Source: Cenarchaeum symbiosum A (lineage in GTDB: Archaea > Thermoproteota > Nitrososphaeria > Nitrososphaerales > Nitrosopumilaceae). From it: DNA of 64,000 nucleotides. The notes under the pieces were generated by a model, which was not told the origin of the DNA, did not search any database, and saw only the letters and a list, made by a program, of their open reading frames with translations. A program made the translations under genes and the position numbers. The stretch is from the NCBI GenBank assembly GCA_000200715.1, contig DP000238.1:194832-258831 (forward strand), written 5' to 3'. Below are positions 14,455 through 50,818 of the stretch, in pieces. Every line of letters begins with the position of its first letter. The stretch's first letter is position 1.

Positions 14455-14811
14455 ATGCAGTACTTTGCCGCCCTTACCCAGGGCAAAAAGAGGGTCGAGG
14501 CGGCCCGCGTATACCTAAATGACATCCCGGAGGCAGGCGGGCGCGCCATGCCCGCTCTTGCGCTAAAACCGGCATCAAAGGACAACGTATGGACGCCCGT
14601 AGGGACGGAGATGCTCTATGCGTTTGTCGACGAATCGTCGGGGTTTGTGCTGACCGATAAGAGCGGGCACATACTGGCAATAGTGGACAATGACGGCCTC
14701 TCCAAGACTGTAATCCAGGGCGTTACTCCGCCTCAAAAGGAGGCGCTGATAAAGTCCTTCCAGGCGGACAACATACCTGAATACAAGGGCATGGTCACTC
14801 TTCCCGTGTGA
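14455..14811 (+). CDS. Hypothetical protein
   Basis: A 118-residue soluble protein with a TATA box (TTTTATAATC, about 14427-14436) 24 bases before the ATG. The middle (MLYAFVDESSGFVLTDKSGHILAIVD) is a beta-hairpin-rich stretch. Only two basic patches and no catalytic motif are visible. I do not recognise it. Confidence 0.6.
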   Translation: MQYFAALTQGKKRVEAARVYLNDIPEAGGRAMPALALKPASKDNVWTPVGTEMLYAFVDESSGFVLTDKSGHILAIVDNDGLSKTVIQGVTPPQKEALIKSFQADNIPEYKGMVTLPV

Positions 14812-14855
14812 TCAAATCCGCAACATTTTAGACACCTGTGTATGGCTGGATATAC

Positions 14856-15488
14856 ATGGGAAGCTTTAGCCGCGAGATAGAGGTGCGCGGGCACCTCATA
14901 GATTCGTCCATACTGACCAGGATATTCGACGGCGTAATGGACCTAAAAGGCGATTTTGAGGTGCTCGAGATAACCATAGGCAAGAGAAAGGGGGATCCCA
15001 GCTATGCGAGATTGATGGTCCAGGGGGGCACGCAGGTGCACCTGGACAGGATCCTAGACATTGCGTACAGGGCCGGCGCCACATCCAAGGTGGAGCGCGA
15101 CGCGCATCTTGCACGGGCCCCCAAGAACATGGCGATGCCTGACAACTTTTACAGCACGACCAACAACAGGACGCAGATATTCCTCGGGAACAGGTGGACA
15201 GACGTGCAGGACATGATGATGGACAAGTGCATAGTGGTCAAGGGGAAGAGGGCCGCATGCGTGCCGATTAGAGAGGTTAAACGCGGCGACCTTGTAGTGG
15301 TGGGAGAATCGGGCGTCAAGGTGACGCCGCCCGAGAGGCCGCGCGAGGGGGTAAACGTGTTTGAGTTCATGGGGAGCAGCAGTTCAAGCGAGCGGCCCAC
15401 CCAGCATATCGCCCGGAGGGTCGCCGAAGACATGTACAGGACCAAGGCCAAAGGCGGCAGGATAGTCCTCGTGGCGGCCCCGCCATAG
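14856..15488 (+). CDS. LOR/SDH-family (TIGR00300-like) protein, N-terminal part
   Basis: A 210-residue product corresponding to the N-terminal half of the archaeal LOR/SDH conserved-domain family, related to the ornithine cyclodeaminase half of cyanobacterial ArgZ. ATG 14856 is 29 bases after ACATTTTAGA; an earlier in-frame GTG at 14838 is possible. It stops at a TAG at 15486-15488. The next gene carries the other half in a different frame. If the C4 run at 15478-15481 were C5, the join would read VLVAAPAIVHTG, close to the family consensus. I therefore read these as one gene broken by a one-base deletion, in sequence or in data. Confidence 0.75.
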   Translation: MGSFSREIEVRGHLIDSSILTRIFDGVMDLKGDFEVLEITIGKRKGDPSYARLMVQGGTQVHLDRILDIAYRAGATSKVERDAHLARAPKNMAMPDNFYSTTNNRTQIFLGNRWTDVQDMMMDKCIVVKGKRAACVPIREVKRGDLVVVGESGVKVTPPERPREGVNVFEFMGSSSSSERPTQHIARRVAEDMYRTKAKGGRIVLVAAPP

Positions 15489-16081
15489 TGCACACGGGCG
15501 CGGCAGATTCTGTCGCGGAGCTTGTAAAAAAGGGCTATATCCGCGGTGTCCTGGCCGGCAACGCACTGGCAGTCCACGATATTGAATACGCCACCTTGGG
15601 CACCTCGCTTGGCATGAATGTTCACGACGGCACGCTTGCAGTAAGAGGCCATAGAAACCACATGGAGGCGATAAACAGCGTCTTCCGGGCGGGCTCCATA
15701 CCAAGGATGGTATCCTCGGGCGCTCTCAAGAGGGGGATAATGTACCAGTGCATAAAGAAAAAGATACCGCTGGTCCTTGCCGGGTCGATACGGGACGACG
15801 GGCCCCTCCCCGACGTGATAACCGATGTAACCGAGGCGCAAAAAGAGTACAAAAAGGTCCTCAAAGACGCGCAGATGGTCATGATGGTATCGACCATGCT
15901 CCACTCGATAGCCACCGGCAACATGCTGCCCGCAGACGTAAAGGTGATAGTCGTAGATATCAGCCAGCCGACAGTCACCAAGCTGATGGACAGGGGCACA
16001 TGGCAGGCCCTTGGGATAGTCTCGGATGTGGGGGCGTTTTTGCCCATGGTTGCAGCCGAGATAAAAAAGCTAGAAGGCTAG
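15488..16081 (+). CDS. LOR/SDH-family (TIGR00300-like) protein, C-terminal part
   Basis: A 197-residue continuation of the preceding gene, beginning at GTG 15488 inside the overlapping TAGTG. It holds the Rossmann-like half (VLAGNALAVHDIE; VHDGTLAVRGHRNHMEAIN; IVSDVGAFLPMVAAEI). Together the two parts give about 410 residues, the usual length of the single-chain family. In archaea one member was reported as an ornithine cyclodeaminase (family knowledge). Translation coupling through TAGTG could still make two subunits, so function may survive. Confidence 0.75.
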   Translation: MHTGAADSVAELVKKGYIRGVLAGNALAVHDIEYATLGTSLGMNVHDGTLAVRGHRNHMEAINSVFRAGSIPRMVSSGALKRGIMYQCIKKKIPLVLAGSIRDDGPLPDVITDVTEAQKEYKKVLKDAQMVMMVSTMLHSIATGNMLPADVKVIVVDISQPTVTKLMDRGTWQALGIVSDVGAFLPMVAAEIKKLEG

Positions 16082-16126
16082 CCAGTGTACCCGCACAATA
16101 TGCGGGTTTGGCATGGCAAAAACTGC

Positions 16127-17521
16127 TCAGCTGGATATCTTTTTTTGCAGTATCTCCAGGGCTGCAGCGGGGTCCGCCCTGCCCTGGGTCTCTTTCATCA
16201 CCATTCCAAGCAGGTAGTTTATCGCCTGCGGGTTGGCTTTTGCGTCCTGCACGGCCCCGGGCTCCGCGGATATGACCCCGTCTATTATCCTGCCCAGCTC
16301 GTCCCCGTCGGATATGCTGCCCGTGTCGCGGCCTCCCGAGACCTCGGAGAGGCTCTTTCCAGAGATCATCTCATGCAGGGCCACTTTGGCAGAGGACCTG
16401 GTCATGGACCCGTCGAGCACCGCGTCGGCAAGCTGGCCTAGGTGCGCAGCCTCCAGTTTTGAGCTGCCGCGCTTTTCGCGCGTATCGAGCAGGCCCATCA
16501 GATCGGTAGTTATTAGATTTGCAACCTCTTTTGCGTTGGCGGCACTGTGCGCCTCCTCGAACATTCTGGAAAAAAAGGGATCAGACGATAATACCTCGGC
16601 CACCTGGGCGGGTATGCCCAGGGATGCATACCTGTCCTTTCTGCTTGCCGCCCCCTCGGGGATGCCTGCCCGGAGACTTGCCAGCGTATCGTCGTCGATG
16701 GTTATCCACGGTATGTCACCCTCTACAAAATAGCGATAGTCGGTCTCTTCCTCTTTTTTGCGCGCAGAGACTGTGATCCGGCGCCGGTCGTCCCACTGCC
16801 TGGTCTCTTGTACCACCTCTATCCCCCTGTCTACAAGGCTCTGCTGTCTAGTTATCTCATAGTGGAGCGCCTTTTCCAGATCATGAAACGAGTTTACGTT
16901 TTTTACCTCGACTTTTGCGCCCCCGTGAACAGAGACGTTCCCGTCTGCCCGGAGCGCCCCCTCCAGGGATGGATCCGCCACCCCCAGGCCCCCGAGCAGC
17001 CCCGACAACTCGTTTAGGAACAATCTTACCTGCGCCGGCCCCTCAAAGTCGGGCTCTGTCACTATCTCCACCAGGGGGACTCCCGCCCTGTTGTAATCGA
17101 CTAGCGTATGCTGGGCCTTGCCCGGGGCGCCCTCGTAGATTATCCTGCCCGGGTCCTCCTCTAGCTGGACCCTTCTTATGCGGATTGTACGGCCGCCAGA
17201 ATCGATGCTGCCGCCGGACCCCGCGCAGGTCTCACCGTACGCGTCGAGCTGCGTTATCTGAAAGTTCTTTGGCAGGTCGGGGTAGAAATAGTTCTTTCTG
17301 AAAAAGGCCAGCCTTGGGGGCACCCTGCAGCCTAGCGCGAGCGCCACCGTCGCGGCCTTTTCTATCGCCCTTTTGTTTGGGAGCGGCAGCGCCCCCGGCA
17401 GGCCGGTGCACACGGGGCAGATGTTCGTGTTTGGTTCGAGCCCGCGGTAGTCGGCCCTGCACGGGCAGAAGAGCTTGCTGTTCAGGCTGGTCAGCTGGCA
17501 GTGGATCTCGAGCCCTATCAT
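16127..17521 (-). CDS. gatB: Asp-tRNA(Asn)/Glu-tRNA(Gln) amidotransferase subunit B
   Basis: A 464-residue GatB that phosphorylates the tRNA-bound acid and accepts ammonia from GatA. Signatures are IGLEIHCQLT at the N-terminus, the Cys pairs CPCRADY and CPVCTGLPG of the zinc site, and VDYNRAGVPLVEIVTEPD. The start at 17521 overlaps the gatA stop as ATGA, which fits translational coupling. Upstream in-frame codons to 17641 only extend antisense into gatA. The C-terminal YqeY-like tail (NPQAINYLLGMVMKETQGRAD) is complete. Confidence 0.95.
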   Translation of the reverse strand: MIGLEIHCQLTSLNSKLFCPCRADYRGLEPNTNICPVCTGLPGALPLPNKRAIEKAATVALALGCRVPPRLAFFRKNYFYPDLPKNFQITQLDAYGETCAGSGGSIDSGGRTIRIRRVQLEEDPGRIIYEGAPGKAQHTLVDYNRAGVPLVEIVTEPDFEGPAQVRLFLNELSGLLGGLGVADPSLEGALRADGNVSVHGGAKVEVKNVNSFHDLEKALHYEITRQQSLVDRGIEVVQETRQWDDRRRITVSARKKEEETDYRYFVEGDIPWITIDDDTLASLRAGIPEGAASRKDRYASLGIPAQVAEVLSSDPFFSRMFEEAHSAANAKEVANLITTDLMGLLDTREKRGSSKLEAAHLGQLADAVLDGSMTRSSAKVALHEMISGKSLSEVSGGRDTGSISDGDELGRIIDGVISAEPGAVQDAKANPQAINYLLGMVMKETQGRADPAAALEILQKKISS

Positions 17522-18957
17522 TGCCAAGGCGGGGCCTCCGGCATCCTGGATCTCTCCTGCAGGGAATACGCCGCCTGCAGCACCTCTGCGTCCCCCGAGG
17601 GCCTCCCCATTAACTGCATCCCGACGGGGAGCCCGTCGCATACCGTATACGGGACGGAGGCCGCCGGCTTGCCCGTAAGGTTGGCGGTGACCGTATTATA
17701 GTCCACCAGGAACAGCCCCACGGGATCGCCCATCTTCTCGCCAAGCTTGAAGGGCAGTATGGGCACAGTCGGAGATAGCAGCAGGTCGTATTCCGCGAGG
17801 GCCTCTTCTGCCTCCCGGGCCAGCAGCCCGCGCACCTTGAGGGCCCTATGATAGTACCTGCCCCCGTGCCCTGACGACGAGACAAACCCGCCGAGTATCA
17901 TCCGCCGCGTCACCTCGGGCCCGAACTTTCTGCGCGCCTTTGATATGTATGAATGGAACTCGTAGCTCTCTATCGGCATGTCATACCCGTACATTGTATT
18001 GTCGTATCTTGCAAGGTTGCTTGCCGCCTCTGTTGCCGTTATGGTATAGTATGCAGCTACAGAATACTTTACCATGTCCAGGGAGACCTTGCCGCACCGG
18101 GCGCCGGCATCTTCGAGGGCGGCCATGGCGTCCCTTGTCGCCTCTGCCACCCGCGGATCAATCCCCTCGCCCGCCATCTCGGTTATCAGGCCCACCTTCT
18201 TGCCTTTGATGCCTGCGTCTATCCCGTCAAGAAACCCTCCCTTGCATTCTATCGTGGTGGCATCATTGGGGTCTGCACCGGATATCACATCCATCATAAA
18301 TGCCGCGTCTTCTACGGTCCTCGTTATGGGGCCTATCTGCTCTATGCTGTTTGCATACGAGACCAGGCCGTACCTGCTTACCAGGCCGTATGTCGGCTTG
18401 AAGCCGACCATCCCGCAAAAGCTCGCGGGATTCCGCACAGAGCCCCCCGTGTCCGACCCTAGCGAAGCTATGCATTCAAGCCCCCCCACTGCGGCGGCGC
18501 TGCCCCCCGACGAGCCGCCCGGCGTGCACTCTTTGTTCCAGGGGTTCCTGCTCGGGCCATAAGCGCTAAACTCGGTGGTAAGGCCCATCGCAAACTCGTC
18601 CATGTTGGTCTTGCCCGTTATTATGGCATCTTCGGCTAGCAGCCTCGTTACGACCGTTGCGTCATAGGGGGATTCGTACCCTTCGAGCATCTTTGAGGCG
18701 CATGTAGTCCTCATTCCCCTTACACAGATGTTGTCCTTTACGGCTATGGGGGCGCCAAGGCACCTGCCCACCTTTTCCCCCTTCTTTATCCTAGAGTCTA
18801 TCCGGCGCGCCTCGTCGAGCGCCTTTTCGTTCAGAGTAATGTACGCGTCGAGCCCCTGTTTTTTTGTCCGCTCTATCGCCCCTGCGGTAAACTCCTCGCA
18901 GGTGGTGCCCCCCGAGCCCACCTCCCGCACATACTCTACTAGCGATTCTGGGAGCAT
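17518..18957 (-). CDS. gatA: Asp-tRNA(Asn)/Glu-tRNA(Gln) amidotransferase subunit A
   Basis: A 479-residue amidase-signature protein that hydrolyses glutamine and channels ammonia. The Ser-cisSer-Lys triad is visible: Lys in IAVKDN, the cis-Ser in GGSSGGSAAAV and the nucleophile in DTGGSVRNPASFCG. The start at ATG 18957 overlaps the gatC stop as TGATG. A longer version from 19005 would overlap gatC by 49 bases and is less likely. Confidence 0.95.
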   Translation of the reverse strand: MLPESLVEYVREVGSGGTTCEEFTAGAIERTKKQGLDAYITLNEKALDEARRIDSRIKKGEKVGRCLGAPIAVKDNICVRGMRTTCASKMLEGYESPYDATVVTRLLAEDAIITGKTNMDEFAMGLTTEFSAYGPSRNPWNKECTPGGSSGGSAAAVGGLECIASLGSDTGGSVRNPASFCGMVGFKPTYGLVSRYGLVSYANSIEQIGPITRTVEDAAFMMDVISGADPNDATTIECKGGFLDGIDAGIKGKKVGLITEMAGEGIDPRVAEATRDAMAALEDAGARCGKVSLDMVKYSVAAYYTITATEAASNLARYDNTMYGYDMPIESYEFHSYISKARRKFGPEVTRRMILGGFVSSSGHGGRYYHRALKVRGLLAREAEEALAEYDLLLSPTVPILPFKLGEKMGDPVGLFLVDYNTVTANLTGKPAASVPYTVCDGLPVGMQLMGRPSGDAEVLQAAYSLQERSRMPEAPPWQ

Positions 18958-47563: not shown

Positions 47564-50041
47564 CTAGCAGAATCTTTGCAGTTCTTGTATATCGCTGGCA
47601 TTTAGGCTGTTCAACATGTGACTCCTGTCGCCCATTCCGTAATCCTTGTGACTCCTGTCGTGCATTCCGTGCCCCTTGTCACCCATGCCGGAGTGCATTC
47701 CGTGCCCCTTGTCACCCATGCCGGAGTGCATTCCATAATCCTTGTCACTCCTGTCGTGCATGCCGTGCCCCTTGTCACCCATGCCAGAGTGCATTCCATA
47801 ATCCTTGTCACTCCTGTCGTGCATGCCGTGCCCCTTGTCACCCATGCCAGAGTGCATTCCGTGCCCCTTGTCACCCATGCCGGAGTGCATTCCATAATCC
47901 TTGTCACTCCTGTCGTGTATGTCGTAATCCCATTCGCCTATGTCAAAGATCTCGGAAACGAAACTATCATGGTCGACCAGGTGTTCAACCAGATATTCGT
48001 GGTGCTCTGTGCCGTGTCCATCCGATGTATCATGGCTTTCCATGTGATCCACGACAAATTCGGCATGCTCCATCAGATGGCCGCCAAACGTGAGTTGTGA
48101 GTGCAGCTCATTGTGCATGACTACATTATCGAGAGAAAGCTCATCCATCCCAATCATTTGCGCCTCCTCATGCTCCTTCAAATGCTCTTCCTCAACCATG
48201 GCAACTCTCCTCACAAATTCTTCCTCGCTTATCTCCAAGTTTCCATGTATGCCATCGTCGTACATTTTGTGCCCCATCTTACCGCACGAGCATCCCTCGC
48301 CGTCCATGTGGCCCATTCTCTCACTCATATCGTGGCCGCTCTTGCCGCACATGCCCTTTTCCATGTGGCCCATTCTCTCACTCATATCGTGGCCGCTCTT
48401 GCCGCACATGCCCTTTTCCATGTGGCCCATTCTGTCTGTCATGTTGCCGTACTTGTCATGCATGCCCTTTTCCATGTGGCCCATTCTATCGCCCATCTTG
48501 TCCGTCATATTGCCGTACTTGTCATGCATGCCCTTTTCCATGTGGCCCATTCTATCGCCCATCTTGTCTGTCATGTTGCCGTACTTGTCATGCATGCCCT
48601 TTTCCATGTGGCCCATTCTATCGCCCATCTTGTCTGTCATATTGCCGTACTTGTCATGCATGCCCTTTTCCATGTGGCCCATTCTATCGCCCATCTTGTC
48701 TGTCATATTGCCGTACTTGTCATGCATGCCCTTTTCCATGTAGCCCATCTTGTCTGTCATATTGCCGTACTTGTCATGCATGCCCTTTTCCATGTGGCCC
48801 ATTTTATCACCCATTTTGTCCTTCATGTGGCCCATTCTCTCACCCATCTTGTCTGTCATATTGCCGTACTTGTCATGCATGCCCTTTTCCATGCGGTCGT
48901 TCATCTTGCCCATGTGGCCATCCTCATGCATGCCCTTTTCCATGTGCGTATCGTCACCGTGTCCTATCATATGTCCAGTCGCGTGTACCTTGTGCCCGAT
49001 GATGTGCCCGTCGCCTGCATCGTGCTCCTCCATGTGCTCGGCAAGGTATTCCTTGTGCTCCTTCAGGTGCTGGACCGTCCTGTCCTGGGAATGCTTGTCA
49101 TAATGCGTGCCTATCATGCGGGCATACACCTCGTGTGCGGAATCAGATGCATCCAGGTGCTCCTGAACGTGTTCCCTTGACATCATTGATGCTTCTTCCG
49201 CATACTCCTCCGAATACTGTTTGCTGCCATTGTGATTTTCATAGTGGCTTGTTTTGTTGTACGTGCCCTTGTCATACTTGCCCGAGTGCCCCGAGGCAAT
49301 GTGCTCGCTTATGTGCATCTTGTGCTCGCTGATGTGCCCGTCGCCTGCATCATGCCCCTCCATGTGCACCATAAAGTACAATATGTGGTCGAAAAGGTGC
49401 TGGTCTATCCTGCCGTCCGCGTGCATGTCCCGGTGGCCGTCCATCACCTGGACAAACTCGTCCAGGCTGTCATCCGAGGCATCCAGGTGCTCCTGAATGT
49501 GCTTGCTGTTCACCCTGTCCGCTTCCATTACATACCCGGTAGCATCGCCGCCGTGATCAATGGCCATGTGCCCTATTACGTGCATTTTGTGCTCGACGAT
49601 ATGGCCGTCATCCGCCATATGCCCGTCCAGATGTTCTGTGAGGTACTCCCCGTGCTCGTGGCGTATGCTGTCCCCGTCATTCCGGTGTTCATCATTATGC
49701 ACGTCTATCTCGCCGACAAACTTTCCAAGCGTCATAAGACTTGAGACTCCCAAGTGCTCCTGCACGTGCCTCTCTGAGAGCATCAGTGCATCCGTCTTTT
49801 CGGAGCTGCCGGATTCCATCCGGGGCTCCCCTGCCGAGCATACCAGGTGCCCGTATTTGACAAATTTGTCATAGACCGACCTGTCGCCAAACTCGGCGCA
49901 CAGCCTGTCACCGCAGATGACATCGGACGTGGATGTCCCGTACCTGCCGTTTGGCTTGCCTTCTGCCTGTGCCCCGTAGGCGGCCCCCGTGATTATAAGC
50001 AGCGGTATTACAGCTACTATGGCCAGGTGTAATCTATGCAC
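47564..50041 (-). CDS. Secreted His/Met-rich repeat protein, possible metal binder
   Basis: An 825-residue protein with a GTG start and a signal peptide (hydrophobic 6-23). A short Cys segment follows (VICGDRLCAEF, 41-51). Then come three ~75-residue His-rich modules (90-166, 179-253, 289-363), each opening H-V/I-QEHL and closing DGHI-x2-HK-M/V-H; a 215-residue tandem array (366-580) of units like GHMEKGMHDKYGNMTDKMG; a fourth His module (618-695); and a C-terminal array of GMHSGMGDKGH and DRSDKDY units (708-810). Met/His density suggests copper or other soft-metal binding outside the cell. TATA ATTAAATAGC (50061-50070) is 25 bases upstream. Function is inference. Confidence 0.85.
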   Translation of the reverse strand: MHRLHLAIVAVIPLLIITGAAYGAQAEGKPNGRYGTSTSDVICGDRLCAEFGDRSVYDKFVKYGHLVCSAGEPRMESGSSEKTDALMLSERHVQEHLGVSSLMTLGKFVGEIDVHNDEHRNDGDSIRHEHGEYLTEHLDGHMADDGHIVEHKMHVIGHMAIDHGGDATGYVMEADRVNSKHIQEHLDASDDSLDEFVQVMDGHRDMHADGRIDQHLFDHILYFMVHMEGHDAGDGHISEHKMHISEHIASGHSGKYDKGTYNKTSHYENHNGSKQYSEEYAEEASMMSREHVQEHLDASDSAHEVYARMIGTHYDKHSQDRTVQHLKEHKEYLAEHMEEHDAGDGHIIGHKVHATGHMIGHGDDTHMEKGMHEDGHMGKMNDRMEKGMHDKYGNMTDKMGERMGHMKDKMGDKMGHMEKGMHDKYGNMTDKMGYMEKGMHDKYGNMTDKMGDRMGHMEKGMHDKYGNMTDKMGDRMGHMEKGMHDKYGNMTDKMGDRMGHMEKGMHDKYGNMTDKMGDRMGHMEKGMHDKYGNMTDRMGHMEKGMCGKSGHDMSERMGHMEKGMCGKSGHDMSERMGHMDGEGCSCGKMGHKMYDDGIHGNLEISEEEFVRRVAMVEEEHLKEHEEAQMIGMDELSLDNVVMHNELHSQLTFGGHLMEHAEFVVDHMESHDTSDGHGTEHHEYLVEHLVDHDSFVSEIFDIGEWDYDIHDRSDKDYGMHSGMGDKGHGMHSGMGDKGHGMHDRSDKDYGMHSGMGDKGHGMHDRSDKDYGMHSGMGDKGHGMHSGMGDKGHGMHDRSHKDYGMGDRSHMLNSLNASDIQELQRFC
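47612..47920 (-). repeat. Coding tandem repeat, GMHSGMGDKGH/DRSDKDY units
   Basis: Alternating 10-residue units in the C-terminal part of the His/Met protein, nearly identical at DNA level (plus strand ACCCATGCCGGAGTGCATTC and similar). Recent duplication or conversion is likely, and unit number may vary between strains. Confidence 0.85.
48302..48946 (-). repeat. Coding tandem repeat, 22-residue Met/His units
   Basis: Units of about 66 bases encode MGHMEKGMHDKYGNMTDK followed by MGDR; several are identical or differ at one or two silent bases. Two units near the end are 18 residues with Cys (KGMCGKSGHDMSER). The array continues in frame throughout, which argues for selection on the protein. 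Confidence 0.88.
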
Positions 50042-50380
50042 GCACTAGGGCCCGATTTGTGCTATTTAATGATTCAGCAGGATGGATGAGTCCGGACGCG
50101 GGGGAGGGGCCGCCGCGGTGGATTTCGTGCCTGAGGCCGGTCCTGCCGGGGCCCGGGCCCACGGCATATCTACCATGATTGTACCAGTCAATCCGTGAAA
50201 ACCTCCAAAAACAGCCGGCCATGCGGCCCCGTGTTTCCTAAAGCCATCCGCCGCGTGAATGCCCGGATCGCCGGGTCTTGGGCCCCGCGGACTCAATCCG
50301 GGGGATGCCTGCGGCCGGGCCTATTCCAATGCAGGGCGCCCCCTGATTAATAATAAATAAGAGTCGCGACATTACCTGTC
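50042..50380. other. Intergenic stretch between divergent genes
   Basis: It holds the TATA box of the His/Met protein (50061-50070) and, at 50348-50360, AATAATAAATAAG for the gene at 50381. The middle is G+C-rich and carries no gene I can support. Confidence 0.4.
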
Positions 50381-50593: not shown

Positions 50594-50663
50594 TGTGCCA
50601 GACGCGTGCCTCTCCGGCCCTGCCGGGCAACCTTAATAGATAAGCGAGCGCCCGCCCTGATCA

Positions 50664-50779
50664 AGCCGGCCATAGCGTCAGGGTGCGACCCAATCCCATT
50701 CCGAACTTGGAAGTCAAACCTGATGTCGCTGTTGTGTTACTAAGATGCGAGAGCTCTTGGGAAGCAACAGTGCTGGCAT
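50664..50779 (+). rRNA. rrf: 5S ribosomal RNA
   Basis: The sequence has the archaeal 5S pattern: terminal helix GCCGGC (50665-50670) paired with GCTGGC (50772-50777), the CATAGCG block, and the conserved loop CCCATTCCGAACTTGGAAG. ACCTTAATAG lies about 27 bases before the 5' end. No 16S or 23S gene is nearby, so the 5S gene stands alone. Ends are good to a few bases. Confidence 0.93.
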
Positions 50780-50818
50780 CATCTAGTGTTATATGACAGG
50801 TGCCGCGCCGCTGATCCC

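Follow-up and report, generated by a model that had tools for sequence, protein, structure and literature searches.

An exported His- and Met-rich repeat protein of Cenarchaeum symbiosum A as a candidate metal sponge of the cell envelope

The window analysed here is a stretch of 64,000 nucleotides from the genome of Cenarchaeum symbiosum A, which we take to be a sponge symbiont and whose genome consists of one contig of 2,045,086 bases. On the minus strand of this window, a coding frame at 47564-50041 is open throughout and specifies a protein of 825 amino acids, with a GTG start at 50041 and a stop codon at 47564-47566. The GC content of the gene by codon position (0.58/0.31/0.70) resembles that of the neighbouring genes. 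An overlapping plus-strand ORF at 48101-49180 was rejected, as its values (0.72/0.28/0.54) are unlike those of the neighbours; the long plus-strand ORFs that overlap the gene are mirrors of its repeats. An in-frame stop is located two codons upstream of the GTG, and a TATA-like TTAAATA (50063-50069, minus strand) begins 28 nt upstream of it, a distance read from the sequence. Together, these features render the GTG start credible and a leaderless archaeal transcript, with its promoter at the TTAAATA, likely. The neighbours of the gene, which encode an ABM-family protein, 5S rRNA and an M17 aminopeptidase, are not copper genes; the 5S rRNA gene (50662-50781, plus strand) is convergent with that of the aminopeptidase.

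Inspection of the predicted product revealed, in order along the chain, a signal peptide, a Cys module, His modules 1 to 3, a Met/His array, His module 4, a Gly-Met-His array and a short tail ending in Cys. All of these are encoded on the minus strand. The signal peptide (49964-50041; residues 1 to about 24/26, MHRLHLAIVAVIPLLIITGAAYGA-QA) was recognized by eye and can be aligned with those of other proteins that carry the same Cys module. The latter, 'GRYGTSTSDVICGDRLCAE' (49892-49969; residues about 25-50, with Cys43 and Cys48), is matched by a profile termed A2 and is referred to below as the CGDRLC module. His modules 1, 2 and 3 are located at 49544-49777 (residues 89-166), 49277-49510 (residues 178-255) and 48950-49180 (residues 288-364), while module 4, the most diverged, is found at 47957-48193 (residues 617-695). 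The Met/His array (48278-48946; residues about 366-588) was reported by TRF with a 66-nt unit and a 90% match, the unit reading GHMEKGMHDKYGNMTDKMGDRM. It consists only partly of exact 22-mers, the remaining units being of about 18, 19 or 33 residues, and its last units are Cys-bearing variants (MCGKSGHDM, GCSCGKMGH). Gly occupies several positions of each Met unit, and Leu, Ile, Val and Phe are absent from it. The C-terminal Gly-Met-His array, also reported by TRF (47618-47917; residues about 709-808), is built from an 11-residue unit, GMHSGMGDKGH, and a 10-residue unit, GMHDRSDKDY. The mature part of 799 residues contains 95 His, 89 Met, 8 Cys (none of them in the His modules) and 1 Trp, with acidic residues in excess.

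A previous sequence-only reading had described an exported protein of 825 residues in which four His-rich modules are combined with two arrays, the first made of 22-residue Met/His units; it had named no strand. The intact frame, now placed on the minus strand, and the four modules were confirmed at the positions given above, the signal peptide being assigned by inspection. The Met/His array is real although not uniformly composed of 22-mers, and the second array is present with its shorter 'GMH...' units. The layout was otherwise described correctly, but the CGDRLC module had been missed.

Pairwise comparison of the His modules yielded 25-48% identity at the protein level and 46-65% at the DNA level, and the four modules are best read as old duplicates. 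Across all four of them, 11 of the 14 His residues of module 3 are invariant, compared to 3 of the 61 other residues (Fisher p = 2.4e-8); between module copies, the codons of the conserved His differ (CAC or CAT). Such retention of His amid drift looks like that of ligands kept under selection.

The spacing of the His and Met residues was then considered. H...H occurs 19 times in modules 1-3, as compared to 6.5 ± 2.1 in shuffled sequences (an approximately 3-fold enrichment), while M...M occurs 27 times in the Met array, as compared to 10.5 ± 2.6, an enrichment of about 2.6-fold that is inflated by the units being copies of one another. Within a single Met unit, its five Met all lie on the same side (p = 0.0004 for a Met strip). 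The Met residues of the array peak sharply at 98 degrees per residue, which is the value of an 11/3 helix, and the pooled His residues of modules 1-3 also peak at 98 degrees. Taken individually, modules 2 and 3 peak at this value and modules 1 and 4 at 168-172 degrees, and the module signal is therefore weaker than that of the array. The invariant His fall on one side of the predicted helices in module 3 numbering (p about 0.01-0.02 each). The peaks at 98 degrees suggest that any helices formed would have a strip consisting of a single type of ligand. Among i/i+4 pairs, His-His dominate the modules and Met-Met the array, and mixed motifs of the HxxM/MxxH type are absent from the Met array (0 observed, 8.8 expected) and at chance level elsewhere in the protein. 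The two ligand types are thus kept apart, unlike in SilE, of which HxxM/MxxH-type motifs are typical.

AlphaFold (AF2) modelling of module 3 together with its three sister modules predicted three helices at low confidence (pLDDT 54). The full chain, modelled from its single sequence, was poor overall (44), yet residues 389-538 of the array were predicted as one helix of 150 residues, with a pLDDT of about 70-79 over much of its length. A Foldseek fold search with both models returned no relative, and the models support helicity only, as a prediction.

No homologue of the His module was found in 250 family genomes, GTDB genome contigs or IMG/VR, and the Met unit had no match in 136 genomes. Two matches of the His module in 398 phylum genomes (E about 0.005 per genome) were dismissed, since chance alone would give about four at E <= 0.01; furthermore, one of the two is interrupted by stops and neither resembles a His-rich exported protein. 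A sequence search of solved structures produced no credible match, and matches to Prefoldin, CsgA, GvpQ and ZorA were weak and fell under curated cut-offs. A match to a phage tape-measure protein (E = 2e-6, residues 388-545) is confined to the periodic Met array and was attributed to shared helical periodicity rather than homology. In six relatives, the M17 aminopeptidase gene is located near the 5S rRNA gene as in C. symbiosum A; the ORFs beyond the 5S gene differ in these genomes and none is His/Met-rich, which argues against a hidden orthologue. The archaeal search that the sequence-only reading had proposed for the His module and the 22-residue unit accordingly found no relative in the collections covered. 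Its statement that no described protein has this layout held in every search, with the qualification that the first 25 residues of the mature protein constitute a module common in the family. A literature search, which did not extend to the original genome paper, found no paper describing the protein. As far as searched, the protein body is therefore an orphan of this lineage.

The CGDRLC module, in contrast, is widespread. The pattern 'A(K/Q)..G....YGSxT..(V/I)CGDRLCSE', directly following the signal peptide, was detected with profile A2 in 80 of 136 Nitrosopumilaceae genomes, with up to 13 matches per genome, and was not found outside this family among 250 phylum genomes. The 825-residue protein bears the post-signal YGSxT..[VI]CGDRLC[SA]E and matches the profile with E = 1.8e-20, though it is itself one of the six rows of that profile; an independent single-sequence comparison matched other genomes with E = 9e-6. 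The module has no Pfam or NCBIfam model, and no mention of 'CGDRLC' was found in the literature searched. It is attached to many unrelated domains, being found at the head of proteins with DUF7482, DUF1264 or a metallo-beta-lactamase fold, of Cys-rich proteins and of short stand-alone ones. We regard it as an envelope module common to secreted proteins of the Nitrosopumilaceae, possibly one for envelope sorting or a disulfide or metal module. CGDRLC-headed secreted proteins, in particular those with DUF7482, resemble the protein described here in that a low-complexity spacer, either Met/His or acidic, comes after a signal peptide and 'YGSxT..VCGDRLC'. They differ from it in their known domains: our protein possesses neither DUF7482 nor any other known domain, and has four His modules and arrays instead.

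Only one other CGDRLC protein is encoded in the genome (E <= 1), in which the module is followed by a Met/Asp/His spacer and then DUF7482. A CopC-CopD fusion lies about 8 kb from this protein, and next to the fusion are two plastocyanin-family proteins that contain Met/Asp-rich spacers; a weak Nramp-like transporter match (below the model cut-off) adjoins the DUF7482 gene. The copper locus is located at genome positions 1774000-1792000, the fusion being a CopC-CopD-Vgb-lyase-like protein of 937 aa, and cupredoxins are encoded at 1774-1776 kb. The spacers of the DUF7482 and plastocyanin-family proteins at this locus suggest that Met-rich spacers go with copper proteins in this genome; this is an association only, and the gene for the 825-residue protein is at another locus. 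Ammonia-oxidising archaea (AOA) carry unusually many copper proteins (PMC9723733).

Several known metal-binding systems invite comparison. PcoE and SilE, the enterobacterial periplasmic copper/silver 'molecular sponge', are likewise exported and His/Met-rich, with many ligands per chain and a structure that is probably disordered to helical. Up to eight Ag+ are taken up by SilE and as many as nine Cu+ by PcoE, which becomes helical in the presence of metal (PMC5008109). The present protein is also an exported His/Met-rich chain, as judged by its signal peptide, its 95 His and its 89 Met; however, it is several times longer, and its putative His helices and Met helix are separate rather than composed of mixed motifs. 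No sil, pco or cus genes were seen around its gene, and no PcoE/SilE family match was obtained in Pfam or NCBIfam, which may or may not include a dedicated model. Csp (DUF326, PF03860) is comparable as a helical copper store. Its acquisition was reported to date to the ancestor of the Nitrososphaerales, the soil AOA order (PMC7554672), and in N. viennensis it is up-regulated when Cu is limiting (PMC7785015). In Csp, Cys residues line a four-helix bundle, whereas our protein has 8 Cys in 799 residues and none in its His modules, and the DUF326 profile does not match it. Csp was detected in only 1 of the 61 genomes covered from this lineage and its order, and it was not detected in the genome of C. 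symbiosum A, in which an unrelated copper store would therefore not be redundant. Finally, CopM/DUF305, CopC and other Met/His carriers resemble our protein in that they bind copper outside the cytoplasm through Met/His; no match to any of these was found in Pfam. Since the defining features tested were absent, membership of the SilE/PcoE or Csp families is not claimed.

The protein bears on how ammonia-oxidising archaea keep sufficient copper outside the membrane. The selective retention of His, the ligand-strip helices, the signal peptide and the CGDRLC relative near copper genes point to an exported metal binder, with copper as the most likely metal. To this extent, the proposal of the sequence-only reading is partly supported; metal binding itself and the identity of the metal are inferred, and the binding may serve either storage or detoxification. 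Our favoured reading, which we regard as an even call, is that of an exported soft-metal sponge of the cell envelope, copper being preferred. Following cleavage of the signal peptide, the CGDRLC module would mark or hold the protein in the archaeal envelope, as it may do in many secreted proteins of the Nitrosopumilaceae. In the helical His modules, His residues at i/i+4 along one helix side would bind divalent ions, e.g. Cu(II) or Zn(II), and sites for soft Cu(I) would be provided by the long Met-faced helix together with the GMH array. With many sites per chain, in the manner of PcoE/SilE, the protein could buffer metal outside the membrane and thus supply ammonia monooxygenase and cupredoxins, or blunt toxicity.

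A number of observations speak against a copper sponge. The CGDRLC module also heads proteins without a known copper link (metallo-beta-lactamase-fold, DUF1264), the neighbouring genes are non-copper genes, the models are of low confidence and without a solved relative, and modules 1 and 4 individually depart from 98 degrees. Furthermore, SilE-like mixed His/Met motifs are depleted in the Met array, and the protein is found in one genome only among those searched, hence there is no cross-species conservation. As a putative Met/His metal sponge, the protein is of a known kind; what is new is its layout, which was seen nowhere else searched. If the reading is correct, a sponge in which His and Met occupy helices of their own would represent a new design of metal buffer. 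It is conceivable, though rather doubtful, that it represents an archaeal copper reservoir of a new class, situated outside the cytoplasm, in which the oxidation states are split within one chain, with helical His-strip modules for Cu(II) and one Met-strip helix of ~20 nm for Cu(I), and which could hold dozens of ions per molecule and replace Csp in the sponge symbiont.

The His modules would suit Ni(II) or Zn(II) no less than Cu(II), and the genome encodes the nickel enzyme urease (PF00449, E = 8e-49), which keeps nickel under consideration. A nickel or zinc reservoir or buffer, akin to the His-rich nickel-storage proteins of urease-bearing bacteria, is nonetheless improbable. The approximately 89 Met, with a strip made of Met alone, point to a soft ion, either Cu(I) or Ag(I), as is established for Met ligands; known nickel stores are cytosolic whereas this protein is exported; and the urease locus (379 kb) is distant from its gene (242-245 kb).

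Similarly unlikely, in our view, is a surface or host-interaction protein of the sponge symbiont (an adhesin or matrix polymer) whose repeats give length and charge, with metal binding being incidental or structural, e.g. in metal-bridged crosslinking. Such a role would be consistent with the ready expansion of repeats, the long predicted helix and the occurrence in one genome among those searched, and sponge AOA possess expanded surface proteins with a suggested role in adhesion (PMC6790972). Structural repeats, however, fail to explain why His is kept while most other residues drift. Moreover, neither an adhesin domain nor a PEFG-CTERM or S-layer domain was matched in Pfam or NCBIfam; TIGR04296 (PEFG-CTERM) is present on a cupredoxin of the same genome. 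The surface adhesin that the sequence-only reading had offered as an option gained no positive support from these searches for such a domain or a PEFG-type C-terminal anchor.

Instead of being a metal site, the Met array could also attach to a membrane or to the surface of a protein as an amphipathic helix, in the way of the 11/22-mer repeats of apolipoproteins. The 11/3 periodicity with a single Met side and a weak Pfam Apolipoprotein match (E = 0.012) would fit with this, but the match scores 15.7 against a gathering cut-off of 90 bits, the units contain several Gly and are devoid of Leu, Ile, Val and Phe, and the His modules are left unaccounted for, making this explanation very unlikely. 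Low-complexity drift, be it a fast-evolving orphan of little function or an array length that is wrong in the assembly, would agree with a body without homologue in any search and with near-identical Met units that show recent expansion, but is scarcely credible against four old modules that keep their His despite 46-65% nucleotide identity, a single intact frame of 825 codons and units that differ by separate synonymous changes.

The CGDRLC module is widespread and unnamed, and it may be of wider importance in marking envelope proteins. In other Nitrosopumilaceae, it also heads proteins of about 527 aa in which Cys-rich stretches (CNCAGDCTCG..., CVCGPSCTCG...) recur; these proteins are possibly metal binders of a Cys type. 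Finally, beside the copper locus of C. symbiosum A, a frame of 1068 aa with near-identical repeats (MRSAADALSLADSVAVSAMVARPATDAPTVAERASADRTIDSGEV) is located at positions 14681-17887 on the minus strand of the 1774000-1792000 piece.
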